Source of the DNA: Evansella cellulosilytica DSM 2522
Lineage (GTDB): Bacteria; Bacillota; Bacilli; Bacillales; Salisediminibacteriaceae
DNA: 64,000 nucleotides
Assembly: GCF_000177235.2 (NCBI RefSeq)
Contig: NC_014829.1
Coordinates: forward strand, 620,001-684,000
Reading direction: 5' to 3'
The notes beneath the pieces were generated by a model. It ran no database searches and was not told where the DNA came from. It saw only the letters and a program-made list of their open reading frames with translations. This document shows positions 36,435 to 58,218 of this stretch, one piece after another. Positions within the stretch are counted from its first letter, which is position 1. Every line of letters begins with the position of its first letter. Both the position numbers and the translations under genes were made by a program.

Positions 36435-36591
36435 TAATAGACTTAATCTATTAAACTCTATGCATCTAGTAGATAATTATGCTAGAGACCTTTTTTTGTT
36501 CAAGATGAAAGTATAAACTAGGCTGTGGAATTTCTCCGCTGTACGTACTAGAGAAGAGCAGAGCGCACTGGTAAAGGACGGTATTTGAGGG

Positions 36592-36770
36592 CACTGAAAA
36601 AGTATAAAACAACTTTTTCCACTCCTCAAAGCAATGAGATTAGTCCTCGCAATCTTTTGGAAGGTTACTACGAGTGGGTTTCTCCTAGTAGTCGTGCAAC
36701 GAACGGAGTCATTGCCATTTAAATTTTAGGAGTTGAAAAAAATTGCTCTCTACTTTTTCATTTCAGTGTT
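36592..36770 (+). repeat. Dispersed palindromic element, copy with flanking CACTGAAAAAG arms
   Basis: The core 36631-36715 is 85 bases, from GCAATGAGATTAGTCCTCGC to CGAACGGAGTCATTGC, with an inner hairpin (TACTACGAG / CTCCTAGTA). GGGCACTGAAAAAGT on the left and ACTTTTTCATTTCAGTG on the right face each other as outer arms. Same length and layout as the copies at 38999 and 47193. Confidence 0.75.
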
Positions 36771-36980
36771 AACCGAAGAGCACTCACTAGTACTTTAAGA
36801 GCTACGGCAAAATTCCGCAGCTTTAAAGAAAAGACTAAAAAGGTAAGATAGTATAAATTTGGCGGTGGAAATGATGTCACGCGCAGTAGCGAGAAGAGCG
36901 CTCACTACTAATTTAAAGACATGTGGCACTATTTCTTCACCGCTTCTAAGAGGTTGTCCCAAAAGCGATTAAAAGTTTTG

Positions 36981-37110
36981 GCAATGGCGCCACTCACCGC
37001 GCGACCAATATAAAAAACCACTTATGTGGTCTTTAACGGATTACGGTGGCTACGCACATTGCTTATAGGGTTGACTCAAAACTTAAAAAATCGACCTTTT
37101 GAGTCAACCC
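36981..37110 (-). repeat. Dispersed palindromic element (reversed copy) with GTTGACTCAAAA hairpin
   Basis: The core 36981-37062 (82 bases) reads, on the minus strand, GCAATGTGCGTAGCCACCG... to ...GGCGCCATTGC. It carries a central ACCAC/GTGGT hairpin. A perfect 14-bp hairpin follows: GGGTTGACTCAAAA with its reverse complement (37068-37110). Confidence 0.78.
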
Positions 37111-37186
37111 CTTATAAAAACAACTTTCATATTAGGATCAGACATGGAATATAACATAATAAGAGCTTTTAAAAGGAGGGATACTC

Positions 37187-37396
37187 GTTAAATTCGCAGC
37201 TTTTCTTTTTGGTCTAACAATCATTACTTTTTTGAACACAAGATCAGGTGAAAAACCGAATGAGGCGTATGGCTTTCTCAAATTTTTAGACTTTAAGCAA
37301 AACGACAAGACATCGGAAAAAAACGTAAAAGGATCGGAGCAATATGATGGCTCTCATGACGCTAGTAGCTTTGACGGCATAGGTGGAGGGGAGTAA
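37187..37396 (+). pseudogene. 69-codon membrane-anchored small ORF with no legal start codon
   Basis: An open frame of 69 sense codons ends at TAA 37394. It encodes a hydrophobic start (FAAFLFGLTIITFL), a basic/polar middle and an acidic Gly-rich tail (SFDGIGGGE). AAAAGGAGGG lies 7 bases before codon GTT (37187), exactly where a GTG start would be expected (GTTAAATTC for GTGAAATTC). The frame upstream closes at TAA 37160 with no ATG, GTG or TTG between. A good terminator follows. Either the start was lost, a non-standard start (GTT or ATA 37181) is used, or there is a sequencing error. Confidence 0.5.
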
Positions 37397-37423
37397 GTGT
37401 GAAAAAAATGAATAAAAAGTGAG

Positions 37424-37470
37424 AACGATTAAAGTGTAGCTATTGCGGTGCTCTTTAGTCGTTTTTTTTT
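37424..37470 (+). terminator. Terminator after the small ORF
   Basis: AACGATTAAAG and CTTTAGTCGTT form an 11-bp stem followed by nine T residues. Its presence 28 bases after the small ORF supports a transcript there. Confidence 0.85.
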
Positions 37471-37598
37471 ATGACAATAGAAAAAAATGAGTTGTAAATT
37501 AGAGCGATTCCCCTATGACTTTTCACCCACGACCAACTGAAGCCACCTTGCTATAATAAGTTGGAATAAATAAACCAAAAAATGGGAGAGAGACAGAG

Positions 37599-38912
37599 TT
37601 GAAAAAATTATTTGTGTACTTACTTATTACTTGTATTTTTACAATAGGATGTAGTGCTGAAGAAACGGAGAGTCAAGATGAAATTGATGAGGTTATAGAA
37701 AATGAAGAACAAGAATTTGAGCAATTATCTAAGGAGGAGTATGTCGAAACAATAGGTGAGCTGCAGCAAAAAATGCAGAAGGAACTTGAGGAATGGGTTG
37801 TTATTTCCCATGACTATTCATCTAATACGTATGTCGAGCAAAATCAGCAACAAATAGATGTCCTTTTATCGGTTGTAGAAAAATATAAGGAACTAGCGGC
37901 TCCAGAGGAATTTGCTGAAGTGCAATCTTATTATGTAAAAGGCATGAATTTGTTTGAAGAAGGGTTTGGCTTATATATGGATATGCTAAGAAATCGTGAT
38001 GAGAGCCTTGAAGAAACAACTAATACTACCTTGAAGGATGGCCAGGACCATTGGAACTATGCTTTTCTATTACTTTCTTTAAAGGAACCTATCCCTATGG
38101 GAGATGGAACAATTACGACTGATGATATGATGAGTTTAGATAGACTTGCTGGAATGGATATAGAAAGTGTAATAAATAATATATCGAAAGACGGTAGTGA
38201 GTTAGTTGGTAAATGGGGCTTTTATTATGATGATGAATCATTTAATGTCTCTATTATTTTACATAGTGATGGTTCGTATGAAGGCTATCCAAATGATGCG
38301 TACCCAGATGATAGTAATGCAATGAAAGGGACATGGTACTACAACTACTTAGTACAGGAATTAGTGATTAGTAACGATGAGTATTTCGAGGATGGAGAAT
38401 CTATAGAACCACCAAGACCTAATATGATAATGGAAATCCAATCGTTTGTAGATGGGGAATTACTTATGATGGATAAAGAATCACTTAATAGTTTCCTTTA
38501 CGTTCAAGAAGGAGAAATACGACAAGATAGACCAACTAGTGAAAAAGAGAGTGATGAATCTATAGTAAATAGTGATGGAGAAATTGCACGTGACAGTTCT
38601 TATGAGACGCTCATCGGAACATGGAGCTACATGAATCTTGATCATGACGAATATCGTGCCATTTATATTCCTGATAGAGGGGACGGATACTATATGATAA
38701 GGACACCAGACTTAAATGTTAATTTTTTTGGAGAGTGGAATTATGATGAAGAGAGCAGTATCCTGACTTTTAGTATAAACAATTATGATTTAGAAAGAGG
38801 AGAGTTTTCCGGACAAACCGATCAACTTACATTTCATATTCATTCTCAGGGTGAGTCTGAATTAGAGGTTGAGGAGAGCGGGAACACATTTATTTTGGAA
38901 AAAGATTTTTAA
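37599..38912 (+). CDS. Large surface lipoprotein with two internal lipocalin-like repeats
   Basis: A 437-residue protein with a lipoprotein signal ending in the lipobox TIGC. Residues about 25-200 are helical and acidic. Two similar beta-rich segments follow (LVGKWGFYYDDESFNVSIILHSDGSYEG and, about 140 residues later, LIGTWSYMNLDHDEYRAIYIPDRGDGYY), each starting with a G-x-W lipocalin-like signature. Very low in basic residues, fitting an external protein of an alkaliphile. No named family is recognised and the function is unknown. GAGAGAG precedes the TTG start at 37599. It is monocistronic. Confidence 0.8.
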   Translation: MKKLFVYLLITCIFTIGCSAEETESQDEIDEVIENEEQEFEQLSKEEYVETIGELQQKMQKELEEWVVISHDYSSNTYVEQNQQQIDVLLSVVEKYKELAAPEEFAEVQSYYVKGMNLFEEGFGLYMDMLRNRDESLEETTNTTLKDGQDHWNYAFLLLSLKEPIPMGDGTITTDDMMSLDRLAGMDIESVINNISKDGSELVGKWGFYYDDESFNVSIILHSDGSYEGYPNDAYPDDSNAMKGTWYYNYLVQELVISNDEYFEDGESIEPPRPNMIMEIQSFVDGELLMMDKESLNSFLYVQEGEIRQDRPTSEKESDESIVNSDGEIARDSSYETLIGTWSYMNLDHDEYRAIYIPDRGDGYYMIRTPDLNVNFFGEWNYDEESSILTFSINNYDLERGEFSGQTDQLTFHIHSQGESELEVEESGNTFILEKDF

Positions 38913-38953
38913 ATGTAAAGAAGGGACTTAAAGGTAAAATGAACCTTTTTAGA

Positions 38954-39083
38954 AGGGCAGTGAAAAAGTGGTGTTCTTTCACTTTTTCACTGCCCTAAGC
39001 AATGTGCGTAGCCGTCGCAATCGTTTAAAAGCCTGATAGGAGTGTGTTTCTCCTATCAGGCGAGCGACGAGCGAAGCTATTGC
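38954..39083 (+). repeat. Dispersed palindromic element, best-preserved copy
   Basis: AGGGCAGTGAAAAAGTG (38954-38970) pairs perfectly over 17 bp with 38980-38996 around a 9-base loop. Three bases later the 85-base core begins (38999-39083): GCAATGTGCGTAGCCGTCGC on the left, a perfect 11-bp inner stem (GCCTGATAGGA/TCCTATCAGGC), and GCGACGAGCGAAGCTATTGC on the right, which is roughly the reverse complement of the left end. Confidence 0.88.
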
Positions 39084-39104
39084 AATACAAATAATATAAT
39101 GTCA

Positions 39105-40232
39105 TTAGCCTAATCGCATTTTAAAATCTTGATAGCCAAATTGTTGGACGATGTGACAATCGCCGTCTTTCGCTTTAATTGCAATAGCTGGAAGCGGCAT
39201 ACCGTTAAAAGTAGTATTTTTGACCATTGAATAAATAGCCATATCTCCAAAGACTAATCGGTCGCCACTTTGTAAAGGCTTATCAAAAGAATAATCACCT
39301 ATCACGTCTCCTGCAAGACATGTCTGCCCACCAAGACGATATGTGAACGGTTTTTCCCCAGTCTCTCCTGAATTAAATAGAGGAGGTCGGTACGGCATTT
39401 CTAACACGTCTGGCATGTGACACGATGCGGAAGTGTCTAAAATAGCAATATCCATTCCATTTTGATGTGTATCAAGCACGGTAGTAATCATGTAACCAGC
39501 ATCAAGTGCTACTGCTTCTCCTGGTTCAAGGTATACGGATAAACCGTAATTTTCTTGCATTCTTTTTATACATTTTTCTAGTAATGGAATATCATAATCT
39601 TCTCTCGTAATGTGGTGACCGCCACCAAAGTTGATCCATTCCATTTGTGGTAGCCACTCCCCAAATTTTTCTTCGACTGCGTGAAGTGTAGTTTCTAAGT
39701 CGTCAGAGTTTTGCTGACAAAGCGTGTGAAAGTGTAGCCCTGATACGCCATCAAGTAAATCGGGACGAAAATGCTTCTTAGTTACACCAAAGCGGGAACC
39801 AGAAGCACAAGGGTCATATATTTCATGACCGACTTGTGTTGAACATTCAGGGTTAATGCGTAAGCCTACTTTTTTTCCAGCTTGAAGTGCTTTATCTTTA
39901 AACTTGTCTAACTGTGAAAAAGAATTAAAAATAATATGGTCACAGATGGAGATGATCTCATCTATTTCATCATCCCGATAGGCAGGGGCAAAGACATGAT
40001 TTTCTTTGCCCATTTCTTCATGCCCGAGACGAGCTTCAAATAGACCACTAGCAGTAGTGCCATTTAAATATTCTCCGATTAACGGATACATAGCAGTCAT
40101 GGAGAATGCTTTTTGTGCTAACACAATTTTACAGCCAGTTCGTGCCATAACACCATTTAGTATCTTTAAGTTTTTTTCCACTAGTGCTTCGTCTACTACA
40201 TAACACGGTGTCGGTAATTCCTCAAAACGCAT
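39105..40232 (-). CDS. nspC: Carboxynorspermidine/carboxyspermidine decarboxylase
   Basis: A 375-residue PLP-dependent decarboxylase of the alanine-racemase fold, related to diaminopimelate decarboxylase. VLAQKAFSMTAMYP carries the PLP lysine, SGLHFHTLCQQ and WINFGGGHHITREDYD bind PLP phosphate, and LDTSASCHMPDVLEMPYRP carries the active-site Cys/Asp. It makes the final step to (nor)spermidine. Its ATG directly abuts the stop of the upstream dehydrogenase gene with no spacer, so the pair is translationally coupled. Confidence 0.93.
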   Translation of the reverse strand: MRFEELPTPCYVVDEALVEKNLKILNGVMARTGCKIVLAQKAFSMTAMYPLIGEYLNGTTASGLFEARLGHEEMGKENHVFAPAYRDDEIDEIISICDHIIFNSFSQLDKFKDKALQAGKKVGLRINPECSTQVGHEIYDPCASGSRFGVTKKHFRPDLLDGVSGLHFHTLCQQNSDDLETTLHAVEEKFGEWLPQMEWINFGGGHHITREDYDIPLLEKCIKRMQENYGLSVYLEPGEAVALDAGYMITTVLDTHQNGMDIAILDTSASCHMPDVLEMPYRPPLFNSGETGEKPFTYRLGGQTCLAGDVIGDYSFDKPLQSGDRLVFGDMAIYSMVKNTTFNGMPLPAIAIKAKDGDCHIVQQFGYQDFKMRLG

Positions 40233-41465
40233 TTATTTACTATACTCCGGCTCTTTAATAGGCTCTGCATCAACAAGCTCTGGATCAAAACTTTCTTGCC
40301 AAGGTAGGCCCCATTTATTTAGTGCTTCCATGAATGGATCTGGATCGAATTCTTCAATGTTGTATACGCCAGGTTTATTCCAAGTGCCATTCATGAGCAT
40401 CATTGCACCGATCATTGCTGGTACACCAGTCGTATAAGAAACTGCTTGAGAGCCAACCTCTTGGAAGCATGCCTCATGGTCGCATACATTATAGACATAA
40501 TACGTTTTGTCTTTTCCGTCCTTTTTCCCTTTAAAAATACAACCGATGTTCGTTTTCCCTTTCGTACGTGGACCTAATGAAGCTGGATCAGGAAGTAACG
40601 CTTTTAAAAATTGAAGTGGAATGATTTCTTTTCCTTCATACTCAATTGGCTCGATAGATGTTAAGCCAACATTTTCGAGACACTTTAAATGTGTGAGGTA
40701 GCTCTCACCGAATGTCATAAAGAAACGAATTCTCTTGATACCAGGAATATTTACTGCTAAAGATTCAAGCTCTTCATGATACAGAAGATACATATCCTTT
40801 TCGCCGACTTCAGGGAAGTTGTACGTACGCTTAATTTCCATAGGCTTTGTTTCAATCCATTCACCATTTTCCCAGTAACGTCCATTGGCAGATACTTCGC
40901 GAATGTTGATTTCAGGATTGAAGTTTGTTGCAAAAGGATAGCCGTGATCGCCCGCATTACAATCGAGAATATCTATATATTCAATCTCATCAAAATGATG
41001 TTTTAACGCATAGGCAGAGAATACGCCAGTAACACCTGGATCAAAGCCTGAACCTAGAAGAGCTGTAATCCCAGCTTTTTCGAAGCGTTCGCGATAATCC
41101 CACTGCCATTTGTATTCAAACTTCGCTGTATCTTCTGGCTCGTAATTAGCAGTATCTAAATAATTTGTTTTCGTTGCTAAGCACGCATCCATAATTGTTA
41201 AATCTTGATAAGGTAAAGCTAAGTTCATCACAACATCAGGCTTCACTTCTTCGATTAATGCAATTAACTCGTCTACATTATTCGCATCTACCTGTGCCGT
41301 TGTAATTTTTGTTTTTCCACCGTCTAGTTTCGCTTTTAGGTCATCACATTTTGATTTCGTACGACTTGCAATACAAATCTCCTCGAAAACCTCACTGTTT
41401 TGAACGCATTTGTGGATCGCAACTGTTGCTACGCCACCACAACCAATAATAAGTGCTTTTCCCAT
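40233..41465 (-). CDS. Carboxynorspermidine/carboxyspermidine dehydrogenase
   Basis: A 410-residue saccharopine-dehydrogenase-like enzyme with an N-terminal Rossmann fold (LIIGCGGVATVAIHKC) and the family motifs LDTANYEPED, ALLGSGFDPGVTGVF and DILDCNAGDHGYPFATNF. It condenses aspartate semialdehyde with a diamine (putrescine or 1,3-diaminopropane) to the carboxy-polyamine. Together with nspC it forms the alternative spermidine route, distinct from SpeD/SpeE. AAGGAG precedes the ATG. A possible attenuator lies in its leader. Confidence 0.92.
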   Translation of the reverse strand: MGKALIIGCGGVATVAIHKCVQNSEVFEEICIASRTKSKCDDLKAKLDGGKTKITTAQVDANNVDELIALIEEVKPDVVMNLALPYQDLTIMDACLATKTNYLDTANYEPEDTAKFEYKWQWDYRERFEKAGITALLGSGFDPGVTGVFSAYALKHHFDEIEYIDILDCNAGDHGYPFATNFNPEINIREVSANGRYWENGEWIETKPMEIKRTYNFPEVGEKDMYLLYHEELESLAVNIPGIKRIRFFMTFGESYLTHLKCLENVGLTSIEPIEYEGKEIIPLQFLKALLPDPASLGPRTKGKTNIGCIFKGKKDGKDKTYYVYNVCDHEACFQEVGSQAVSYTTGVPAMIGAMMLMNGTWNKPGVYNIEEFDPDPFMEALNKWGLPWQESFDPELVDAEPIKEPEYSK

Positions 41466-41576
41466 TCATATCTCTCCTTACAATTAGATTTTCTAAGAGG
41501 TATTACTTAACAACCTAACTAGCGTGATTGAAACTACTTAGGATATTATTGCAAAACCCCTTCATTCTTTTCCCAA

Positions 41577-41617
41577 CAAAAAAACAAGTGTAAACGCATT
41601 TGCGCACAACACTTGTT
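41577..41617 (-). terminator. Terminator-like hairpin upstream of the polyamine operon
   Basis: On the minus strand AACAAGTGT and ACACTTGTT (9 bp) enclose a 17-base loop with GCGCAAATGC and are followed by TTTTTG. It points toward the dehydrogenase gene, about 110 bases before its ATG, so it is either an attenuator in the leader or the end of an unseen minus-strand transcript. Confidence 0.6.
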
Positions 41618-42170
41618 ATAGATATATTAGTCATATTAATAGAGCTTAAATTACATGACAATAGTCATCATTACTACCATAAAAACTATGTTAGTTTATG
41701 ATAGAAAGCTCTTTAATATTCAATATACCATTGTTGGATCAGAGTCTATACAGCAGTTAATTACTTTTAGTACTCTTATTGACCGTTTCACAAGTTGATG
41801 TGCGTAAGCACTGGTTGTAAAGTAACCAACTTATAAAATTTGAGCTTCTAACTCAATCAATAAGGCAAACTAGTTGCCAATCGGCATTTGACCCGGCTGT
41901 CCGCATGGCCTAGACTTCCTAAGAAAGGAGTGGTCAAAATTATCTGCTAGGAAAGACCTGTTATGTCGAATATTAGCTTTCCATTTTAACGCCCCTTAAG
42001 ATTATCAACATCTATTAAAAATAGCAATAGAAAATTTAAAATTAAGAAAAAAAATTGACTACAGCTAATGGGGACGGATCTCGTTTGCCAAATAAGGATA
42101 AATCATATTAGTTATTAAAGTATTAAAATTTATAGTAGGATTTTTATAATATGTATGGAACTCTATATAG
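41618..42170. other. Long gap with unexplained GC-richer structured patch
   Basis: No coding frame over 60 codons. Bases about 41862-41960 are richer in G+C than the flanks and contain several short complements (GGCAAAC.., GACCCGG..., ACTTCCT/AGGAGT, GACC/GGTC). This hints at a folded RNA or a decayed element. I compared it by eye with c-di-GMP, T-box and SAM riboswitch patterns and found no match. A GGGGACGG near 42068 resembles the repeat flank at 52273. Confidence 0.35.
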
Positions 42171-42206
42171 TGAGAGCGCTTTCCTCATAAACCGAAAGCG
42201 CTTCGG
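42171..42206 (+). promoter_or_regulatory. Two cre-like / LacI-type operators before the reductase gene
   Basis: TGAGAGCGCTTTCC (42171-42184) and CCGAAAGCGCTTCGG (42192-42206) share AGCGCTT cores of the LacI/CcpA type, 21 bases apart. Each differs from the cre consensus at two to four outer positions, so a dedicated LacI-family regulator is as likely as CcpA. A TATAAT lies upstream at 42145-42150. Confidence 0.55.
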
Positions 42207-42281
42207 ATGAAATGGAAAGACCTTCACTATGAAATACTGTATTTGGTTGCAAAAGAAAAAAGAAGGGAGAATCAATACAGA

Positions 42282-43217
42282 ATGAAACAACGGGTACTCG
42301 GAAGCACTGGCAAGACAATTTCTGAAATTGGACTAGGTTCTTGGCAGCTAGGGAATGCGAAAGATTGGGATGTCATGTCTGAAAAGGAGGGCATCGAACT
42401 TGTACACCATGCATTAAGCCTAGGGTGTAACTTTTTCGATACCGCGCCAAATTATGGTTTAGGAAAGAGCGAAGAAATACTCGGAAAAGCATTAAAAGGT
42501 AAACGGAATGAGGTAATCATTAGTAGTAAATTCGGTCATCAAGATGATGGCAGCATTAATTTTGATCCTCATGAAATAGAAAACTCTGTTCATAAAAGTT
42601 TAAAAAGACTCCAAACAGATTATCTGGATACACTTCTTTTACATAATCCACCGTTTGAATACTTAAATGGAGGTAGTCATCATTTTGAGGTGCTTGAGAA
42701 GTTAAAAAGGGAAGGGAAGATACTATCTTACGGTGCCTCTGTAGATTCGAGCAAAGAGATGTTTCAAGTAATCGAAACGACAAACAGTCAAGTGATGGAA
42801 GTCATGTTCAATATTTTTCACCAAGAGACGAGTGAAGCGTTTAAAGCTGCAAAGGAAAATGGGATTGGTCTCATTATTAAGGTGCCGTTAGACTCTGGAT
42901 GGCTCTCTGGTAAATATGGATCAAATAGCACCTTTACTGATATAAGAAGAAGGTGGAGCAAAGATATTATTGAAAGAAGAACAAACATGCTTAAGGAGAT
43001 AAAGAAAATCGTAGATCCGAGCCAAAGTCTGACACAAAGCGCACTCCAATTTATCCTTGCTCATGAGGAGGTATCAACCATTATTCCAGGAGCAAAAAAT
43101 ATCATACAGTTAAATGAAAATGTTTCAGCAAGCCAAGGTATGATGGACGAAACTAAAGTGGAACAGCTAAAATCACTTTGGAAAAAGCACTTACAAAATA
43201 ATAGCCTTCCATGGTAA
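42282..43217 (+). CDS. Aldo/keto reductase
   Basis: A 311-residue aldo/keto reductase: IGLGSWQLG, catalytic Asp/Tyr in FFDTAPNYGLGKSEE, Lys in ISSKFGHQ and His in LLLHNPP; the NADP-binding end IIPGAKNIIQLNENV is intact. ATG 42282 with GAAGGGAGA upstream is preferred; an open frame back to 42207 overlaps the operators. It is followed after 45 bases by the beta-helix gene, so the pair looks like an operon for an unknown sugar. Confidence 0.88.
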   Translation: MKQRVLGSTGKTISEIGLGSWQLGNAKDWDVMSEKEGIELVHHALSLGCNFFDTAPNYGLGKSEEILGKALKGKRNEVIISSKFGHQDDGSINFDPHEIENSVHKSLKRLQTDYLDTLLLHNPPFEYLNGGSHHFEVLEKLKREGKILSYGASVDSSKEMFQVIETTNSQVMEVMFNIFHQETSEAFKAAKENGIGLIIKVPLDSGWLSGKYGSNSTFTDIRRRWSKDIIERRTNMLKEIKKIVDPSQSLTQSALQFILAHEEVSTIIPGAKNIIQLNENVSASQGMMDETKVEQLKSLWKKHLQNNSLPW

Positions 43218-43262
43218 AAATCATAAGCATCAAAATTGTCATGTCGAAAAGGAGGAACGACC

Positions 43263-46235: not shown

Positions 46236-46340
46236 TAGAGCACGTTGTACATGTGAGAAGGTGCCTTAAATATTAGTGGTAAAAACTAAGGAAGCACGGA
46301 ATGCTAGATTTAAAACAGAGGGAGAATTTACGGTTTAAAG

Positions 46341-46388
46341 AAAAAAACGTTAGTAACAGCTTGATAAAGCTGCTATTAACGTTTTTTC
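46341..46388 (+). terminator. Strong terminator between the beta-helix and DUF3267 genes
   Basis: AAAAAACGTTA and TTAACGTTTTTT form the base of a hairpin with an inner CAGC/GCTG stem; A-run left and T-run right make it active on both strands. Confidence 0.85.
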
Positions 46389-46448
46389 TTATATGTTGTA
46401 AAATTAGATATGAATTGACTTATACACAAATGAAAAGAGGAGAAGTGT

Positions 46449-47069
46449 ATGAACCTAGTATGGAAAGGAATTTATAAAAGTGTTGACCAACTTCCGAAAG
46501 GAGATTTACCTGAACGAGCGGTGAAATTTAAGGAACCTGATAATTTGGTGCAATTAAACATAATCGCTTCATTATTTGTTATACCTGTTTTAATACTCAT
46601 TGCTATTGCAGTTTTTCTTAAATTTGTAATAGCGGGAGGAGAAGTTACTTTTACGGTCTTTAATCTTTGGGGATTTCTTTTAGCCTTTTTAATGATATTG
46701 CCTCATGAAATGCTGCACGCAATGCTATTTCCAAAAGGTAAAGAGGTAGAGTTATGGGTAAGTCCAAAAGCGATGGCGGCATTTGTCGTATGTACGGCTC
46801 CCATATCAAAAGGGAGATTTATTTTCCTGAGTCTATTACCTAATATAGTATTTGGTTTTATTCCATTAGTAGTGTGGATAGTTCTTCCTGTAGGAGGCGC
46901 AATAGAAAATATATTATTTTCATTTGCAACATTAAGCTTATTATTTGGGGTCGGGGATTATTTAAATGTTTTCAATGCAGCACGCCAAATGCCAAATGGA
47001 GCACTCACACAATTGTCCGGAATGAATTCTTATTGGTTTATGCCTGAAGAAGAACAAAAAGCACAGTAA
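46449..47069 (+). CDS. DUF3267 zincin-like membrane protein
   Basis: A 206-residue protein with about four membrane helices and an HExxH motif in LPHEMLHAMLFPKG, typical of DUF3267 (putative metalloprotease-like membrane proteins). A further family feature is the end FNAARQMPNGALTQLSGMNSYWF. Proteolytic activity has not been shown for this family to my knowledge. AGAGGAG precedes the ATG. Monocistronic. Confidence 0.82.
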   Translation: MNLVWKGIYKSVDQLPKGDLPERAVKFKEPDNLVQLNIIASLFVIPVLILIAIAVFLKFVIAGGEVTFTVFNLWGFLLAFLMILPHEMLHAMLFPKGKEVELWVSPKAMAAFVVCTAPISKGRFIFLSLLPNIVFGFIPLVVWIVLPVGGAIENILFSFATLSLLFGVGDYLNVFNAARQMPNGALTQLSGMNSYWFMPEEEQKAQ

Positions 47070-47147
47070 GGAAAAAATAATTATTCATACATAGCATGAA
47101 GCGGTTCTTCATCTTTTGATTGATAAAGAAAAAGAACCGTATTTGGA

Positions 47148-47331
47148 GGGCACTGAAAAAGTGGTGTTCTTTCACTTTTCCAGTGTCCCCAAGCAATGTG
47201 CGTAGCCGTCGCAATCTTTTAAAAGCCTGATAGGAGTGGGTTTATCCTATAAGGCGCGCGACGAACGTAGCCATTGCAACACAAATAAAAGGCACTGAAA
47301 AAGTGGTGTTCTTTCACTTATCCAGTGTCCT
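47148..47331 (+). repeat. Dispersed palindromic element flanked by two CACTGAAAAAG hairpins
   Basis: The 85-base core (47193-47277) matches the copy at 38999 at most positions, including GCAATGTGCGTAGCCGTCGC and the inner GCCTGATAGGA stem. A hairpin (GGGCACTGAAAAAGTG...CACTTTTCCAGTGTCC) lies before it and a near-identical hairpin after it (47291-47331). It occupies most of the 470-base gap between DUF3267 and the GyrI-like gene. Confidence 0.88.
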
Positions 47332-47538
47332 CCCGTTTTTGTGTTTTCTTAAGTCTAAAACTATGTCTATCTTCCCGTGTAATGATTATTTATAGCCATA
47401 ATTCCTCCGCCAAATCTCCTATTTAAGTCATCTTACTATATATACACTTGCTATTAGAAAAGTAATAAATTAACATGAGAATATACGTTCGATTCGTGTT
47501 TTGCCTTATATGAAAATTTTATAAAGGAGAGTTAAACA

Positions 47539-48030
47539 ATGGAAAAATATAAAGTCGTGAAGATACCTGCTTACCGTGCAATAGGATTAAAGTGGGAAGG
47601 GTCTTGGTCTGAAATAAGTGGGTTAAAAGAGGTAATTCAAGAGGCTGGCGATCGGCGGGAAGAATTAAGTCATATCGTTGCCCCCGTTGTTCAGTTAGGG
47701 CTATCCTATCACACTAGACAAGACGGATTTACCCATTATTCAGCTTATGAGGTTACGAGAGAGCAAGAAGTACCAGATGGAATGATAGAAATCGATATTC
47801 CAGAAATGACATACTTAGTTACGAATCATAAAAAAGGCGGAAATATCGGAAAAACATATGACGATATCGCTCAATATTTAAAGGAAAGTAATTATGAACC
47901 ATATCGAGACGAAACAGTTCCATTTGAAAACTTACCAATTAAACATGAAAAGTATCCACTCGATAGGGATTTAGACGATCCCCATTTTGAGATTTTGATT
48001 CCTATAGAAAAGAAAGAGAAGGATATGTAA
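47539..48030 (+). CDS. GyrI-like / AraC effector-binding domain protein
   Basis: A 163-residue stand-alone small-molecule-binding domain: KYKVVKIPAYRAIGLKWEGSW at the start, then QLGLSYHTR and EIDIPEMTYLVTNHKKG, ending with FEILIPIEKK. The SHS2-type fold binds hydrophobic cations in relatives and sometimes inhibits gyrase or acts as an effector sensor. No DNA-binding domain is present. AAAGGAGAG precedes the ATG. Confidence 0.82.
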   Translation: MEKYKVVKIPAYRAIGLKWEGSWSEISGLKEVIQEAGDRREELSHIVAPVVQLGLSYHTRQDGFTHYSAYEVTREQEVPDGMIEIDIPEMTYLVTNHKKGGNIGKTYDDIAQYLKESNYEPYRDETVPFENLPIKHEKYPLDRDLDDPHFEILIPIEKKEKDM

Positions 48031-48252
48031 TACGTGTGACCGTAAAAAAAGCTAGAATATTTATGTTTAACGGTGTAATATATTCTAAATATCATTTTTA
48101 CAAGTTGATGAATGCAAGGGGGAAGGATCCATCCACAGAGAGGAAGAAAGGATACTTGTTCTACTCTCGCTAGATAAAGAAGGATTAATGCTTTCAAAGA
48201 AACGAAGCCTTTAAGTTTTTTGAATATTACAACGAATAGAGGTTGATGAAAG

Positions 48253-48942
48253 TTGACAATGGATGCGAAAAACCTTCCAATGAATGAATTACCTGTGAAA
48301 GAACCGACAATTTTTGATCATGTAGGGAATAAAATAATCACAGACGATCGAAAAATTGACATTATTGCCAGAATTAAAGAGCCACTAATCGTCCTTCTCG
48401 GTAATGTGTTAAGCGAAGAAGAGTGTGATCAACTCATAAGCTTGTCAAAGGATAGAATTGAGCGATCTAAAATTAGTAATAAAAGTGTTCATGACTTGAG
48501 AACGAGTAGTAGCATGTTCTTCGATGATGCAGAAAATGATGTTGTGTCGACAGTCGAAAAAAGAGTTTCACAAATTATGAAAATTCCAGTAGACCACGGA
48601 GAGGGAATCCAAATTTTAAATTATGCAATTGGGCAGGAGTATAAGGCACACTACGATTATTTTTCGTCAGGTAATAGTAAAGTCAATAACCCAAGAATTA
48701 GTACACTTGTGATGTACTTAAATGATGTAGAAGCTGGTGGAGAAACATACTTTCCAAAGCTGAATTTTTATGTTGCACCGAAAAAAGGGATGGCTGTATA
48801 TTTCGAATACTTCTACAATGACACAACTTTAAACGAGCTAACATTACATGGGGGAGCACCAGTTGTTATTGGAGATAAATGGGCAGCAACACAGTGGATG
48901 AGAAGAAAGGCAACTAGCAATGTTTCAAGTTTTACTATATAA
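48253..48942 (+). CDS. 2-oxoglutarate/Fe(II) oxygenase, prolyl 4-hydroxylase-like
   Basis: A 229-residue oxygenase with the jelly-roll motif set: HYDYF (iron His and Asp), RISTLVMYLNDVEAGGETYFP, then LHGGAPVVIGDKWAATQW (second His, 2-oxoglutarate Lys). It is related to the bacterial P4H of B. anthracis, which hydroxylates proline residues. The TTG at 48253 lies 9 bases after GAGGT; ATG 48259 is an alternative. The substrate is unknown; collagen-like proteins are not seen nearby. Confidence 0.88.
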   Translation: MTMDAKNLPMNELPVKEPTIFDHVGNKIITDDRKIDIIARIKEPLIVLLGNVLSEEECDQLISLSKDRIERSKISNKSVHDLRTSSSMFFDDAENDVVSTVEKRVSQIMKIPVDHGEGIQILNYAIGQEYKAHYDYFSSGNSKVNNPRISTLVMYLNDVEAGGETYFPKLNFYVAPKKGMAVYFEYFYNDTTLNELTLHGGAPVVIGDKWAATQWMRRKATSNVSSFTI

Positions 48943-49094
48943 AACTATTTTTTTAAGAGTATGACTTAACAGGTGGAATTTTTACCTTTTGAGTTATACT
49001 CCTTATTTGTATAAAAAACGTGCAACTTAAATTGCTGAAAAATCGTATGTAATAGTATTCAAGTAGGTTGCAAAGGAAAGAGGCTGTTGTCATT

Positions 49095-49223
49095 GTGAAA
49101 AATATTATTCATTACAGCATCACTAAAAAGCCTTTACAAATCATCATTTTAACTTTGCTTGGAGTAGCACTATTTTTTTACATGAATCATTTTTTAACTC
49201 GGGAGTTTTTCAATAGACTATAA
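49095..49223 (+). CDS. Possible 42-residue single-helix membrane protein
   Basis: A GTG-started frame encodes a basic N-terminus (KNIIHYSITKKP), one membrane helix (LQIIILTLLGVALFFYM) and a short tail. GAGG lies about 12 bases upstream, which is far. The helix/charge layout looks real, but the length and ribosome site leave doubt. Confidence 0.35.
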   Translation: MKNIIHYSITKKPLQIIILTLLGVALFFYMNHFLTREFFNRL

Positions 49224-49666
49224 GTTTCCATTATTGTTTTTTACAGCGAAACACATGTTAAGTGTTAGGAATCCTGAAAGGACTGACCTTTATATTTTCA
49301 TGCAACGAATATCATGGGGTGTGTTCCTGAATATCGGATGCATTCTATTAATTGCGGCTATTCTATAAGTTTCAGTGGGTGCGTTCTCATATAGGACTAC
49401 TCCCATTTCTTTGTCTACCATTCTAATCTTCATATAAGGGGGAACAAAAACACCACCTTTTGACCTAAATTGTCGGGGAAATATAGGCATTAACTCCCTT
49501 AATATGAGTAGGTCTTTTCGTTTTAACCATCAGTTCACTTCAATCAATCGCATACGTTTCCATCGTGCTCTTCTAATATCCATATTTCTTTTCTATCATT
49601 TATGTAATTCGTACCGTAAGCTTTTATAATTTTTCATTTTTTTACTTTTATTTTTGGGGGTGATTT

Positions 49667-49707
49667 ATTAGAATATATTTTTAATTCTAATAACTAGTTG
49701 TTATACT
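49667..49707 (+). promoter_or_regulatory. ilvD promoter with inverted repeat
   Basis: ATTAGAAT and ATTCTAAT (49667-49691, 9 bases apart) overlap the expected -35 position of an extended -10 box TGTTATACT (49699-49707), 32 bases before the ilvD ATG. A repressor site is likely; no T-box is visible. Confidence 0.5.
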
Positions 49708-49739
49708 TATGAAATAAATAATAGAGAGGAGAGTTAATT

Positions 49740-51407
49740 ATGGCAAACCATTCAAAAAGCCGCAGTAATGTTTTTAATGATATTAACAAGGCTCCAAATC
49801 GTGCAATGATACGTGCGATGGGCATAACCGACGAAGATTTCGAAAAACCTTTTATAGGAGTTGCTAGTACGTGGAGTGAGGTAACACCATGTAATATGCA
49901 TATTGATGAATTAGCTAGGAAAGCGAAACAGGGAGCTAAAGAAGGTGGAGGGACGCCGTTCATCTTTAATACAATTACCGTCTCCGATGGTATTTCGATG
50001 GGAACAGAGGGGATGCGTTTTTCGTTACCTAGTAGAGAAGTGATTGCTGATTCTATAGAAACAGTCGTTGGAGCCCAAAACTACGATGGTGTTGTAGCTA
50101 TCGGTGGCTGTGATAAAAACATGCCTGGCTGTATGATAGCAATTGGCCGCCTAAATCTGCCATCTGTGTTCGTTTATGGCGGGACGATTCGTCCAGGCAA
50201 AAATGATGGAGAGGACATTGATATTGTTTCTGCCTTCGAAGCAGTAGGGAAATACAACAATGGAGATATAGATAGTGACGGGTTAAACAAGATTGAATGT
50301 AATGCATGTCCAGGTGCAGGGGCATGTGGTGGTATGTATACTGCTAATACAATGGCATCAGCTATCGAAGCAATGGGGATGAGTTTACCGGGGAGTTCAT
50401 CAAATCCAGCAGAATCCCCTGAAAAAATGGAAGATTGTATTGAGGCAGGAAAAGCAGTTTTAAATCTTGCGAATCAAGGGATACTTCCAAAGGATATTAT
50501 GACTAAAAAAGCATTTGAAAATGCGATCACTGTTGTCATGGCATTGGGGGGATCAACAAATGCTGTACTTCATTTATTAGCATTAGCTCATACTGTTGAT
50601 GTCGAACTCGATTTAGATGACTTTGAACGAATTCGTCAGCGTGTCCCTCATATTGCCGATTTAAAACCAAGTGGCAAATATGTTATGGAAGAATTATCAA
50701 AGGTTGGTGGGGTACCTGCTGTAATGAAACTGCTTCTTGAAAAAGGGCTACTTCACGGTGAATGCTTAACTGTTACCGGTAAGACGGTTGCTGAGAATCT
50801 TGCTGAGGTTGATCATTTAAAAGAAGGACAAAACATTGTTTCTTTTGAAAAACCGAAACGAGAAAATGGTCCCCTAGTAATATTAAAGGGAAATCTTGCT
50901 CCAGAAGGTGCAGTAGCAAAAATGTCAGGGTTAAAAATAAAAAATATCACTGGACCAGCCCGTGTGTTTGATTCTGAGAAAGAAGCAACCGAAGCTGTGT
51001 TAAATAATAAAATTAACGCTGGAGATGTAATTGTTATTCGTTATGTTGGTCCAAAAGGTGGACCTGGCATGGCTGAAATGTTATCTATTACAGCTATTGT
51101 TGTCGGGAAGGGGCTTGGAGAAAAGGTTGGTTTAATCACAGATGGCCGTTTTTCCGGAGGTACTCATGGGCTTGTAGTAGGACACATTTCTCCAGAAGCA
51201 CAAGTAGGTGGGCCGATTGCATTAATTACAGAGGGAGACTTAATTACAATTGATAGTGAGACACAGGAGTTGACTGTTAATATTACAGAAGAGGAATTTG
51301 CTGAAAGACTAAAGGATTGGACAGCACCAGAGCAAAATATACGCGGAACATTAAAGAAATATGCTCGTTTAGTATCTTCAGCATCCAAAGGAGCAATTAC
51401 AGATTAA
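49740..51407 (+). CDS. ilvD: Dihydroxy-acid dehydratase
   Basis: A 555-residue Fe-S enzyme converting 2,3-dihydroxy-3-methylbutanoate (and the isoleucine analogue) to the 2-oxo acid in branched-chain amino acid synthesis. Cluster and active-site motifs: [41 protein letters not shown] and [16 protein letters not shown]. Length is normal. GAGAGGAGAG precedes the ATG. It is separate from other ilv genes and ends at a strong terminator, so it is a single-gene unit. Confidence 0.96.
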
Positions 51408-51482
51408 AAATAGAGGGGATGCCAGAGGTTGATTGTTGAGGTTACTGAAAAAGTAAAGAGCAACTTTTTCGCCGAAATTTCC

Positions 51483-51522
51483 GGGACTGGAAATAGTAAA
51501 TATACTATTTCCAGTCCCCTTT
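51483..51522 (+). terminator. Terminator after ilvD
   Basis: A perfect 16-bp stem (GGGACTGGAAATAGTA) with a 4-base loop, followed by CTTTT. Just upstream (51437-51472) is another degenerate ACTGAAAAAGT/ACTTTTTC pair of the dispersed hairpin family. Confidence 0.8.
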
Positions 51523-51554
51523 TAAACATGTAGGATATCCTCAAAAAAGTAAGC

Positions 51555-52106
51555 TTAATAACGATGGTTTTCGGCAGCCATTGCAATGGCTTTCGTTTCA
51601 TGTACGGTACCAAATGGATGCTCTGGTGGAGCATAGATCGAGTATAGTTTTAGTGGCTGATGACCTGTATTGATAAGGTTGTGCCACTTTCCAGCTGGTA
51701 CAAATATCGCATAATCCTTATACGCTTGCTGTTGGAAATTTAGGTACTCTTTTCTATCGCCCATTTGCACTAATCCTTGCCCCTCTTCGATTCGAAGGAA
51801 CTGATCAAGGTGAGGATGAACCTCCAAGCCGATGTCTTCACCTACGTCGATACTCATCAAAGTTAATTGCAAATGTTTACCTGTCCATAAAGCTGTCCGG
51901 AAATTTTGATTATTCTTCGTGACTGTCTCCATATCAACTACAAAAGGGTTTGATCCGTAATCAACAAGATTCGTGTCTCGGTATTTAGGATTAATACTCC
52001 TATAGTTAGGATTGTTAAGCCATGTGTCATAGCCTCCGTTGCTATAGTTCCACTGAGTGTTCACCGCATTAGGCCAATGGGATGGTCGGTATGGTGGATA
52101 ATACAT
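51555..52106 (-). CDS. Cupin domain protein with Tyr/Pro/Asn-rich N-terminus
   Basis: A 183-residue protein. The N-terminal 60 residues are rich in Tyr, Pro, Asn and Trp (MYYPPYRPSHWPNAVNTQWN), like spore coat proteins, and a cupin barrel follows with metal motif HPHLDQFLRIEEGQG and second His in VPAGKWHNLINTG. Relatives are annotated as mannose-6-phosphate isomerase-like cupins. ATG 52106 with GAGAGGAG is preferred over the ATG at 52130. Coat localisation is inference. Confidence 0.8.
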   Translation of the reverse strand: MYYPPYRPSHWPNAVNTQWNYSNGGYDTWLNNPNYRSINPKYRDTNLVDYGSNPFVVDMETVTKNNQNFRTALWTGKHLQLTLMSIDVGEDIGLEVHPHLDQFLRIEEGQGLVQMGDRKEYLNFQQQAYKDYAIFVPAGKWHNLINTGHQPLKLYSIYAPPEHPFGTVHETKAIAMAAENHRY

Positions 52107-52272
52107 TTTCTTCTCCTCTCGAAAGTCCATTTTCCTTTTATCCTATGCAGATGTCTATTTATAAGTAAGTAAAAAAATAAAAATGGGCGAGAGGTTTATG
52201 CTGGTCAAATGATGTATATTAAGTCATGTAAGTTAATAAAGGGATGGTTTGATAGGTAAAAAGTATGCAAAG

Positions 52273-52456
52273 GAGAACCGTCCCTATTAGCCTAATTAAA
52301 GTGTTTTTCCAGTTGGTTTCCAAATCGCGTGAAACTCGTGTTAAATCGCACATAACTCGATCAAAATCGTTTGTAACTTGAAAGGAATCGCACATAACTT
52401 TGACCAAATCATGCAAAACTATCAAACTGGCGAGTGAGAACCGTCCCTGTTAGCCT
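52273..52456. repeat. Five 21-bp tandem repeats between two 21-bp direct repeats
   Basis: Units begin at 52321, 52342, 52363, 52384 and 52405 and share AATCGC....AACT. The block is framed by nearly identical flanks starting GAGAACCGTCCCT (52273-52293 and 52436-52456, one difference). A minus-strand frame through the block gives 7-residue repeats (CDLTRVS-like) because 21 is a multiple of three; I treat that frame as a by-product. Similar GGGACGGTTCTC segments are common in Firmicute intergenic DNA. Confidence 0.8.
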
Positions 52457-52459
52457 CTG

Positions 52460-52717
52460 TTAGCCTTCTTGCTTTTTTTTCATCAGTTCCACTTCTACAT
52501 GGTACACATTCCTATATTTATTTTTTACAGTAAGTACTTTTCCTTTACGGCCTTTTAGCTTAATTCCTTCCTCTTCCTGAGGTACAACATCTCTAATTTG
52601 ACTTAACAAAAGGTCATTGTCTTCAAAAAATATAACATGATTCATCGTATCACCCATTTCTTTTAAGCTTTGATTATTCTCTGTATGAAATATATGATGA
52701 ATGTCATCATTCATCAC
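52460..52717 (-). CDS. Hypothetical 85-residue protein
   Basis: A small soluble protein: acidic N-terminal half (MNDDIHHIFHTENNQSLKEMG), VPQEEEGIKLKGRKGKVLTVKNKYRNVYHVEVELMKKK at the end. The C-terminal half reads like a small beta-barrel or SH3-like segment. No family recognised. The ribosome site is weak. Codon use looks like its neighbours. Confidence 0.5.
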   Translation of the reverse strand: MMNDDIHHIFHTENNQSLKEMGDTMNHVIFFEDNDLLLSQIRDVVPQEEEGIKLKGRKGKVLTVKNKYRNVYHVEVELMKKKQEG

Positions 52718-52816
52718 TAACTTTTTTACTTAGGGACTCATCATTTAACCAGATATTTTATCACTACATTTTTAGTGTTAAAATAAACATGTTATTAACT
52801 GATGAAGGAGCATACT

Positions 52817-53467
52817 ATGGAAATTATTAGGAAATTAAAGCTAGATAAATATAGTAATATGGCTGTGTTAAATGAACCAGAGGATTATCGCGTATTTGCT
52901 GATTATCCAAATACTTTGACGAAGGAACACGACGCTATATTTGTTTTTGTTGAAACAATAGAGGAAATGATGGAAAACATAGATCATATAATAAAAGAAA
53001 ATAAGCTGTCCGAAAAAGGGTATATTTATATTGCATATCCGAAAAAAGGAAATAAAAGATATCAAACCTTTGTACACAGAGACGAGATTTTTCCTAAGTT
53101 GAAGGTTGGAGAAGATGGTTATGTTGGCAATAGCGATGTAAAGTTTTCACGTATGGTTAGTATGGATGATGTATTCACTGTTGTTGGGTTAAAACGTGAA
53201 AAAAAGAAAGTACAAAAATCAATTCCATCAAGCCAATGTGTTGCAGATTACGAAGGAATGGTGAAGGATGTTGAGGAATTGCTTCAAAATAATAAAGACG
53301 AATTTGATTTTTATCAAAAGCTAACACCAGGATACAAGAAAGATTGGGCGCGATTTATATTTTCTGCTAAGCAGCAAAAAACAAGAGATAAGCGAAAAGA
53401 GCAAATGATTGAGGTGCTTTCACAAGGGTATAAAACAATGGACTTGTACCGTCAAAAGAAGAAATGA
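52817..53467 (+). CDS. YdeI/OmpD-associated family protein
   Basis: A 216-residue cytoplasmic protein. The N-terminal half resembles DUF3052-like or small alpha/beta domains; the C-terminal part has the family end LTPGYKKDWARFIFSAKQQKTRDKRKEQM and GYKTMDLYR. Function is unknown; relatives are linked to stress responses. The ATG at 52817 has AAGGAG 6 bases upstream, so the upstream ATG at 52802 is rejected. Confidence 0.78.
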   Translation: MEIIRKLKLDKYSNMAVLNEPEDYRVFADYPNTLTKEHDAIFVFVETIEEMMENIDHIIKENKLSEKGYIYIAYPKKGNKRYQTFVHRDEIFPKLKVGEDGYVGNSDVKFSRMVSMDDVFTVVGLKREKKKVQKSIPSSQCVADYEGMVKDVEELLQNNKDEFDFYQKLTPGYKKDWARFIFSAKQQKTRDKRKEQMIEVLSQGYKTMDLYRQKKK

Positions 53468-53585
53468 CTATAGGAGGTGAAGGATACTTCTCGTGGATAT
53501 TTCAGAAGCATGGTATTCTTCAAAAATTGAAGAGGAGGATGGCTTTTAAGACATCCTCCCTTCGTTTATAGGTAAAAAACAAAGA

Positions 53586-53627
53586 AAAAATAAAAACGAG
53601 CTTCACTAAGCTCGTTTTTATTTTTTC
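53586..53627. terminator. Bidirectional terminator
   Basis: AAAAACGAGCTT pairs with AGCTCGTTTTT, with A-run left and T-run right. It serves the YdeI-like gene and the convergent DoxX gene. A GGAGGATG/CATCCTCC hairpin lies just before it. Confidence 0.9.
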
Positions 53628-53653
53628 TTATGAGTTTGATTTATGTCGTGTAT

Positions 53654-54157
53654 CTATGCTGCATTCGTTACTGTTTTATCAAGTTTCCCTCTGAATATTA
53701 CAGAGCGAAGGTAAGGGATAACCCAACGGTCTCCACCGAATTTACCTGCATTGTAGCCAGCAGCTAAGATGAAGATTGTAATAAGGATCATCCATGGGTT
53801 AGTAGACACTGTACCTGCAAACATAAATGCGAAGTTCATGACGATACCGAAGAACGCTGCCGCTGTTGTTAATACACCTAATATTAATCCTAATCCTACA
53901 AGAAGCTCTCCCCAAGCGACCATAAAGCTAAATGTTCCTGCAAATGGAAGTGCAAAATTCTCAATGAAGGCATGGTACGTTGGGTAAGTAGCTGCAACAG
54001 TTTCATTAGCAACAACACCGTTTAAATATCCGCCTGCATCAAATCCACCTGTTACTTTTCCCCATCCTGCTGTTAACCAAGACCATCCTAAGTAAAGACG
54101 TAAAACTGTTAAAAGACCAGCTGCAATTTTGTTGTTTCGTAAAAAATCCATAAACAT
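53654..54157 (-). CDS. DoxX family membrane protein, copy 1
   Basis: A 167-residue membrane protein with about four helices: LLTVLRLYLGWSWLTAGWGK, a loop, FMVAWGELLVGLGLILGVLT, and MILITIFILAAGYNAGKFGG. DoxX proteins are linked to quinone or thiosulfate redox chemistry and oxidative stress. It differs from the copy at 58572 at 7 of 167 residues. GGGGAGG lies 8 bases before the ATG. The upstream region carries two TGTGA-N6-TCACA boxes and a palindrome. Confidence 0.88.
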   Translation of the reverse strand: MFMDFLRNNKIAAGLLTVLRLYLGWSWLTAGWGKVTGGFDAGGYLNGVVANETVAATYPTYHAFIENFALPFAGTFSFMVAWGELLVGLGLILGVLTTAAAFFGIVMNFAFMFAGTVSTNPWMILITIFILAAGYNAGKFGGDRWVIPYLRSVIFRGKLDKTVTNAA

Positions 54158-54274
54158 GAATAATTCCTCCCCTAAAGGTTTTTATTTTATTTTTCGAAGA
54201 TCGTCTGTGATCTGTTCTTCTAATAAGTTAATAATAATAGCTTTTGTTAAGGTGATTGACTTTGCGTCGCTCTT

Positions 54275-54395
54275 GTTAGTGACCACTAACTATCTTCACT
54301 TGTAGTATATAACGGATAAAGGTGTGATGAACGTCACACTTATGAACGTTATGTTGCAAACTAGTGACGAAAATGTGAATGTGATTATTTTCACA
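54275..54395 (-). promoter_or_regulatory. Regulatory region of DoxX copy 1 (two Fnr/Rex-type boxes, one palindrome)
   Basis: Two perfect TGTGA-N6-TCACA boxes lie at 54323-54338 and 54380-54395. A TATACT -10 box (54309-54304, minus strand) follows the nearer one. GTTAGTGACCACTAAC (54275-54290), a 16-bp palindrome, lies just after the expected start site, where a repressor would act. Fnr and Rex both bind such TGTGA/TCACA boxes, so the factor is undecided. Confidence 0.7.
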
Positions 54396-54463
54396 AGGGA
54401 GAGGAGACGATTGAGAGGATAACTCGAAAGGCCGAATTTTTGCCTTCTGAATCATCCTCTAAA

Positions 54464-54545
54464 CAATGTGCGGAACCGACGTAATCTCTAAGAGCCATTA
54501 TAAGTGGATTTCTTATAATGGACGCGCGGCGAATGGGGTCGTTGC
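54464..54545 (+). repeat. Dispersed palindromic element, diverged copy
   Basis: About 82 bases from CAATGTGCGGAACCGACG to GGCGAATGGGGTCGTTGC, with an inner CCATTATAAG/CTTATAATGG stem. It keeps the end sequences and layout of the copies at 38999 and 47193. A GAGGAT/ATCCTC hairpin lies on its left. A 65-codon minus-strand frame through it is not a gene. Confidence 0.7.
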
Positions 54546-54610
54546 CAGAAACTGAAATAGCTTTTTCAACAGCCTCTTTCCACTTCAAAATTGCCTTAAT
54601 AATGGAGTAA

Positions 54611-58100: not shown

Positions 58101-58218
58101 TAACAATCAAGTTTGATAAGTAGAAAAAACATGCTAAATGAGCATCCTCATCACTCGTTTGTCGTACAAATTGAATGTCACCACCTATTTCCACGTAGGT
58201 ATTTGGTGTGTACTAGGA

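Follow-up and report, generated by a model that had tools for sequence, protein, structure and literature searches.

Repeat units in the window

We analysed a family of folded, dispersed repeats that recurs through a 64,000-nucleotide stretch of the Evansella cellulosilytica DSM 2522 chromosome (C1:620001-684000 of 4,681,672 bases; hereafter the window, whose positions are counted from its first base). A first-pass annotation had described an imperfect palindrome of about 85 bp at seven places in the window. Six of these cores are as described: three are exactly 85 bp and the others are 79, 82 and 83 bp. The seventh, a degenerate copy claimed near 12226, has no full core and is a lone hairpin of the flanking type with a short core remnant. 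The palindrome itself is real, but it is the middle of a larger unit, usually with a hairpin of ~45 bp before it. The units and their parts are as follows, with the basis of each assignment in brackets.

12250-12296, strand unassigned: solo type II hairpin, with the short core remnant at 12226-12244 (sequence, arm pattern)
27135-27152, minus: right-end arm of the 27168 unit, type II pattern (arm pattern)
27168-27246, minus: folded core, degenerate (sequence)
27251-27290, minus: flanking hairpin A, type II-like (by eye)
36587-36627, plus: flanking hairpin A, type I, degenerate (sequence, arm pattern)
36631-36715, plus: folded core, type III-like inner stem (sequence, core alignment)
36861-36943, strand unassigned: related third-kind palindromic unit, likewise built of outer stem, TTTAAA strand and inner stem (by eye)
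36949-36966, minus: right-end arm of the 36981 unit, type II (arm pattern)
36981-37062, minus: folded core, type II inner stem (sequence, core alignment)
37068-37111, minus: flanking hairpin A, type II arms (sequence, arm pattern)
38954-38996, plus: flanking hairpin A, type I arms, directly upstream of the core (sequence, DNA folding)
38999-39083, plus: folded core, type I inner stem (sequence, core alignment, covariation)
47146-47190, plus: flanking hairpin A, type I (sequence, arm pattern)
47193-47277, plus: folded core, type I (sequence, core alignment)
47288-47332, plus: second type I hairpin, right end of the 47193 unit (sequence, arm pattern)
54414-54460, plus: flanking hairpin A, type II (sequence, arm pattern)
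54463-54545, plus: folded core, type II-like (sequence, core alignment)
54560-54577, plus: right-end arm of the 54463 unit, type II (arm pattern)

A complete unit starts with hairpin A (~45 bp), which consists of an arm, a short loop and the complementary arm'. A link of 2-3 nt (AA or GAA) joins it to the ~85-nt core, which is followed by a spacer and often by the loop and arm' again or by a second hairpin. Folded as DNA, the hairpin at 38953-38996 reaches -19.3 kcal/mol (z -8.75). Two arm types dominate in this genome, type I (AGGGCACTGAAAAAGT) and type II (AGAGGTTGACTCAAAAGG).

Copy number and distribution

The profile count that the annotation had suggested was made with a model of the flanking hairpin plus core (R1, built from 13 sequences). 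At least 149 matches were found in this genome (E<=0.001), and relatives were positive too. The count is a lower bound because scoring covered 150 of 2629 candidates, and cores without a flanking hairpin may escape R1 since the model includes that hairpin. On inspection of all 149 matches, about 8 had no recognisable core and others were truncated. In pattern searches, the first 20 bases of the core (up to 3 mismatches) occur 96 times in the 4.68-Mb genome and the type I arm (up to 1 mismatch) 298 times, with 0 and 1 occurrences of the respective reversed controls.

The family is patchy among relatives. Ten of 59 other genomes were R1-positive under stricter filters, with up to 50 candidates per genome scored. 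Four genomes of the same genus (G001, G006, G007 and G008) and G023 have at least 50 matches each, followed by G033 (29), G026 (15), G036 and G039 (2 each) and G025 (1); the congeners G002-G005 gave none among the candidates scored, at most 50 in each. GTDB contigs scanned for the pattern gave at least 120 matching stretches; among those listed, the motif is carried by Evansella tamaricis, E. vedderi and E. caseinilytica, and it recurs in Evansella, Alkalihalobacillus deserti, Halalkalibacter and one Bacillus metagenome-assembled genome; lone matches in unrelated phyla are probably due to chance. No published description of the family was recognised in the literature searched, which comprised short title listings with thin coverage of subscription journals.

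Hairpins also occur alone and units also occur in series. In 855 kb of the genome, 61 of 168 type I or II hairpins stand alone, with over 60 bp separating them from the nearest of the best 140 of the 149 R1 matches, the sample also used for hairpin types and gene context below. Tandem arrays hold two units at L003 and three each at L009, L011 and L015; a fourfold array at L096 is without cores. The L015 array (L015:9500-9880) consists of three tandem GC-rich relatives with GAGTAACCAGCAAAAGGG arms, and two matches there have 53% G+C, compared with 37% in the window.

Arms and IS1182-family ends

A type I or II arm sequence lies within 75 bp upstream of 125 of the 140 best matches, and none was found by these patterns in the other 15. 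Hairpin and core types are mostly matched: type I hairpins are paired with the cores GCCTGATAGGA (43) or GACTACTATGA (21), and type II hairpins with GACCACTATAA (19) or GCCCAYTATAA (19). Exchanges are few, an example being o294869m, where a type II hairpin precedes a GACTACTATGA core. Twenty-seven matches, mostly 153-167 bp long, fit the two type II end patterns with no more than 4 mismatches per pattern.

In congeners, insertion sequences of the IS1182 family end in sequences that closely resemble the arms, with 0-3 differences in 16-18 bases. Type I-like ends are found in G008 on the elements at L125/L159 (GAGGCCACTGAAAAACT / AAGGCCACTGAAAAAGT) and L119/L166 (GAGACCACTGAAAAA), and type II ends (AGAGGCTGTCCCAAAAGG / AGAGGGTGTCCCAAAAGC) at L143, L151 and L157 in G003 and at L156 and L163 in G004. 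In four of these elements (L143, L151, L156 and L163) each end forms a hairpin. Five of six transposases tested (L125, L119, L143, L156 and L130) passed the NCBIfam IS1182 cut-off. Autonomous elements with closely matching ends are thus present in G008, G003 and G004; two Pfam searches found none in the genome of E. cellulosilytica itself.

Six near-identical IS1182-like copies of ~1.75 kb (L029-L034) occur in that genome; they end in GAATCAATTTCATAATT and are flanked by short AT-rich repeats. Their transposase (L030) falls just under the NCBIfam IS1182 cut-off (262 vs 270 bits). These copies were considered as the parent of the units and rejected because their ends differ. A MITE (miniature inverted-repeat transposable element) of ~250-450 bp also has type I arms (L016:5494-5860, L024:6978-7325, L099:2528-2875, L108:3511-3770, L109:2365-2640 and L115:2336-2790); most copies have a core that contains CTTTCCGTGGGCGGCTGGTGAGCC, and several lie beside or inside hairpin halves.

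Fold and covariation of the core

The core fold was evaluated on an alignment of 111 of 143 available cores, 58 of the 75 unique full-length cores of this genome and 53 of 68 from relatives. Two out-of-register rows from relatives (L327:1498 and L332:3420) and 30 near-duplicate or doubtful rows were omitted by eye; own cores outside 80-89 nt, namely a 12-nt deletion class and truncated copies, had been set aside beforehand. Own cores of 72-74 nt (e.g. L002, L005 and L006) account for 25 of the 149 extracted cores and occur at many sites; most belong to a type I subclass whose outer 3' strand is shorter by the same 12 nt.

The fold has 27 pairs. In the alignment 94.7% of its cells are paired, compared with 83.6% in shuffles, and changes on both sides are seen in 21 of the 27 pairs. 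Double-changed cells number 368, against 123.7 in shuffles that leave the relatedness of the copies in place, and 0 of 500 shuffles were as high. Sliding one partner by 1-3 columns lowers pairing to 25-48%. The annotation had stated from a few copies that the inner stem changes while pairing is kept and that structure seems conserved beyond sequence. Both statements are borne out by compensatory changes in 111 distinct copies, inner stem included. The imperfections are conserved as well. The 3x3 internal loop is GNA/GNA, with N free, in 90 of 111 copies, and a strand of 11-12 nt (AATCNTTTAAA) lies opposite 2 nt. Single copies fold well both as DNA and as RNA (z -2.65 to -6.8 for six core strands), and the hairpin plus core of one copy has a stable RNA fold (z about -11).

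Among cells that deviate from standard pairs, G-U (98) exceeds A-C (49), and G-U is ahead in 15 of the 27 pairs and A-C in 5. This points to folding of the strand on which hairpin A is upstream, although the comparison is not a clean test because the copies are related.

Two other folds were rejected. DNA mini-hairpins of the type d(GCGNAGC) are stable, and two of them could flank the core. Their pairs are formed in 88.7% of cells vs 88.3% in shuffles; they are unsupported because they show no covariation beyond shuffles, and both partners do vary in the long-range pairs 8-91, 13-86 and 14-85. A pair of local hairpins at the core ends is weaker than the long-range fold, with 81.0% of cells paired (1 of 500 shuffles as high), only 11 double-changed cells and one pair unpaired in 93 of 111 copies.

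Placement near gene ends

Genes in this part of the analysis are predicted open reading frames (ORFs). Among the 140 copies, 61 lie in tandem, 54 in convergent and 8 in divergent gaps, 14 overlap small ORFs and 3 are without assignment. The annotation's remark that copies lie only between genes is therefore nearly right; the 14 exceptions overlap predicted ORFs of at least 80 aa, all of 84-132 aa. In contiguous stretches, unoccupied gaps are distributed 115/45/49 (tandem/convergent/divergent), which differs from the 61/54/8 of the 123 copies (p 2e-6) and from the 15/19/1 of occupied gaps in the same stretches (p 6e-5). The median distance from a copy is 73 bp to a 3' end and 178 bp to a 5' end. 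The 61 solo hairpins are placed similarly, with 24 in convergent, 23 in tandem and 2 in divergent gaps, 2 inside genes and 10 without assignment.

Orientation relative to the upstream gene in tandem gaps shows no clear bias (25 same, 36 opposite). Positions +1 to +6 after 27 type II units are rich in T (100 of 162 bases; T is 31% window-wide), and before these units A is found at -2 in 19 and at -3 in 16. The window copies match no Rfam family at gathering score, nor at E<=1 in window 36500-39200.

Elsewhere in the window, Rfam gives matches to a cobalamin riboswitch (RF00174, 123 bits, 58205-58387, minus strand), BsrF (71 bits, 31540-31652, minus) and SpF59_sRNA (62.5 bits, 41881-41936, minus).

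Nested insertions and orthologous sites

Many of the readings in this section rest on visual inspection of the sequence. At L097:17714, L099:2499, L108:3484, L108:13580 and L096:1160, the loop of one hairpin houses a second element, either a type I hairpin or a type I MITE of ~250-350 bp. These nests are bounded by repeats of 6-9 bp of the loop: an exact 9-bp GAAGAACAC at L108:3484 (L108:3484-3800) and imperfect repeats at L097, L099, L108:13606 and L096. Elsewhere the older hairpin survives as its left half only, and half-hairpins stand beside inserted hairpins at 1702846, 2749708, 530332 and 2000714. At six loci the inner loop of a type II or III core is broken by a third-kind unit or what is left of one. 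Most of these loci have lost the inner stem's second half, and o743772m has a short remnant; o2331181m has a complete third-kind unit in the inner loop of its type II core, flanked on either side by TATA.

Flanking repeats are also enriched at solo hairpins. Repeats matching in at least 8 of 9 positions flank 3 of 61 hairpins, compared with 3 of 1200 shuffled pairs, and at least 7 of 9 match at 10 of 61, compared with 53 of 1200. Together with the nested cases, this suggests that target duplication is real for some copies and not general.

Orthologous gaps carry different elements in different genomes. At L020 site 1, the type II unit of E. cellulosilytica corresponds to a solo type II hairpin in G008 and to a short hairpin, AGAGGGT...ACCCTCT, in G005. 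The own type II unit at site 3 again has a solo type II hairpin as its G008 counterpart, and terminator-like hairpins lie there in G001-G006, some of which lack the neighbouring genes. Site 2 has an own type I unit, a plain terminator in G008 and other hairpins in G006 and G007. The 3' end of a gene judged by eye to be thioredoxin-like is occupied in A. deserti (L308) and H. alkalisediminis (L334) by a plus-strand unit that both share. H. oceani P106 has there a reversed unit with other arms and further inserted sequence, and H. oceani 214.1.1 has the same arrangement, its core being shortened. In G023 the place is taken by a different element of ~140 bp with inverted ends, AGGCTGGGACA, which are like those of a DDE_Tnp_1 element of G004 (L141/L146); G033 has a plain terminator and G026 other sequence. 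Four positions distinguish the arms of the L308 unit from those of the L334 unit, and at these the three arm copies have changed together. For the window sites 47193 and 54463, a match table gave no clean orthologous gap in five congeners.

Discussion

The copy number, patchiness and common layout of the units, the match of their arms to IS1182-family ends, the nests, the bias toward gene 3' ends, the varied elements at orthologous sites and the covariation of the core point to an explanation that we consider probable, if with considerable reserve: the palindromes are the folded cores of MITE-like elements that are moved in trans by hairpin-targeting IS1182-family transposases and take over terminators. 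The units are short and repeated, have terminal inverted repeats and lack coding capacity, the only ORFs that overlap any of the 140 copies being small ones. The assignment to a MITE/REP/BOX-like family in the first-pass annotation was right in kind, given the dispersed and patchy occurrence, the inverted terminal arms, the absence of a real ORF and the IS1182-family ends in congeners.

In the proposed mechanism, the unit arms would be the terminal inverted repeats of IS1182-family elements, and the units would be IS1182-type elements that have lost their transposase gene and carry a folded core. Transposases of the IS1182 family would mobilise both the units and the bare hairpins in trans. 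According to two reports (PMC4923244, PMC5678879), the transposase of IS1272, a member of the IS1182 family, inserts into stem-loops, several of which are confirmed terminators. Stem-loops, above all transcription terminators, would likewise be the target here, as the nests, orthologous sites and gene-end bias suggest indirectly. With such targeting, units would land at gene 3' ends and occupy the place of the terminator, and landing in the loops of older copies would build nests. As for the function of the core, we prefer a mobilisation signal read as single-stranded DNA to an RNA or a by-product of template switching; the core may be kept because its single-strand fold is needed for mobilisation.

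Several observations weigh against this mechanism. No transposition event was observed in these sequence comparisons. Two Pfam searches found no IS1182-family element with unit arms in this genome; the annotation's statement that no transposase is seen holds to that extent but fails for the genus, where congeners have such elements. The six intact IS1182-like copies of this genome have GAATCAATTTCATAATT ends and not unit arms, and its other DDE_Tnp_1 gene (L138) has no matching pair of ends. The matches between arms and insertion sequence ends in congeners are close and not always exact (0-3 differences in 16-18 bases), and no core was seen inside an autonomous insertion sequence. By a stricter test, an intact hairpin adjoins the core in only 29 of 74 cases in this genome and 31 of 64 in relatives, and arms differ among copies in Halalkalibacter and Alkalihalobacillus, which is odd for a transposase site. 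No uniform target duplication is found at the 27 type II full units; the nest at L108:3484 retains both target arms and a loop repeat, unlike the reported behaviour of IS1272. At L020 site 2, G002 and G005 have no clear hairpin. Window site 38999 is half syntenic, its right gene being conserved and its left gene (DUF3994 in this genome) not. Its reading as a clean empty site is weakened because only the right-hand gene is conserved.

The placement at gene 3' ends could also mean that the copies are a domesticated RNA element, kept as terminators, 3'-end stabilisers or small RNAs. The T-tract after type II units, the stable RNA fold of hairpin plus core in one copy and the G-U excess would fit such a role. 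The annotation's suggestion of an RNA-active element keeps some force insofar as the G-U excess suggests that one strand folds. However, the copies show no clear orientation bias and no Rfam match in the window, the family is patchy among congeners, and truncated and nested copies occur. We regard this explanation as rather unlikely.

A second alternative takes the core as the element proper. It would insert into an existing arm-loop-arm' hairpin and duplicate the loop and arm' (20-27 nt), the flanking arms thus stemming from the target instead of a transposon end, and another agent, for example one based on single-stranded DNA or RNA, would move it. Among copies whose hairpin could be recognised, the third arm indeed matches arm' (at least 12 of 16 bases) in 17 of 31 from relatives and 14 of 29 from this genome, compared with 97 of 930 when arms were mismatched, and arrays read arm-(loop-arm'-core-spacer)n-loop-arm' (L308, L015, L003 and L009). 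Arms vary between copies of one genome (L332 vs L334), and the G-U excess is as if one strand folds. Yet in Evansella the same arms, resembling IS1182 ends, recur at dozens of sites, and no core-less site with the same hairpin arms was identified as an empty allele. The arms of the orthologous L308 and L334 units changed together at 4 positions in three places, so arm differences need not derive from targets. Insertion of the core alone is unlikely in our judgement.

Template switching at quasi-palindromes copies one arm onto the other, and during replication it could have produced the compensatory changes as a mutational by-product of a fold without function; the near-perfect palindromy of the arms and the concerted change of three arm copies between L308 and L334 are expected from it together with repeat conversion, but it would perfect palindromes, while the core keeps its GNA/GNA loop as the stems diverge, retains its 11-12 nt strand opposite 2 nt and has more G-U than A-C, and we find it improbable.

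The mobile-element mechanism with an IS1182-family transposase, if true, means that intrinsic terminators in Evansella and its relatives have been repeatedly replaced by mobile hairpins, and that terminator sequence is partly mobile-element sequence. A bolder version, which we consider unlikely, is that these are self-nesting, structure-addressed elements: core and hairpin ends would be read as single-stranded DNA structure, arms and stems could drift as long as paired copies drift together, and bare ~45-bp hairpins would be mobile themselves, as portable terminators. The family offers more than 100 natural variants with compensatory change, and asks whether an IS1182-type transposase reads sequence or shape.

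Comparison with known repeat families

Several known families share features with the Evansella units. REP sequences, associated with RAYT transposases, are dispersed intergenic palindromes as well, but they are 20-40 bp long and tagged by GTAG or CGTC (PMC3733652). The bcr1-bcr18 elements of Bacillus cereus are interspersed Firmicute repeats of 100-400 bp with mobile features, bcr1 reaching up to 130 copies. Compared by description, they differ in being tied to a TTTAT motif and to the B. cereus group (PMC6542083). The pneumococcal BOX, RUP and SPRITE repeats, reviewed in PMC10969869, are numerous, folded and intergenic, with elements inserted in one another; SPRITEs lie near gene 3' ends and are terminator-like (PMC3049150). 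Again compared by description, the Evansella family differs in that a hairpin and a folded core form one unit whose arms resemble IS1182 ends.

The likeness to IS1272 and TnSha1 (PMC4923244, PMC5678879) lies in an IS1182-family transposase, inverted ends, insertion into stem-loops including terminators and the lack of a fixed target sequence. IS1272 insertion is reported to make no target duplication and to delete part of the hairpin, as the half-hairpins at four places noted above might also reflect. The Evansella units, in contrast, are non-autonomous, ~45 to ~190 bp long and in many cases endowed with a conserved folded core, and in some of the nested cases both arms of the target survive and 6-9 bp of its loop are repeated.

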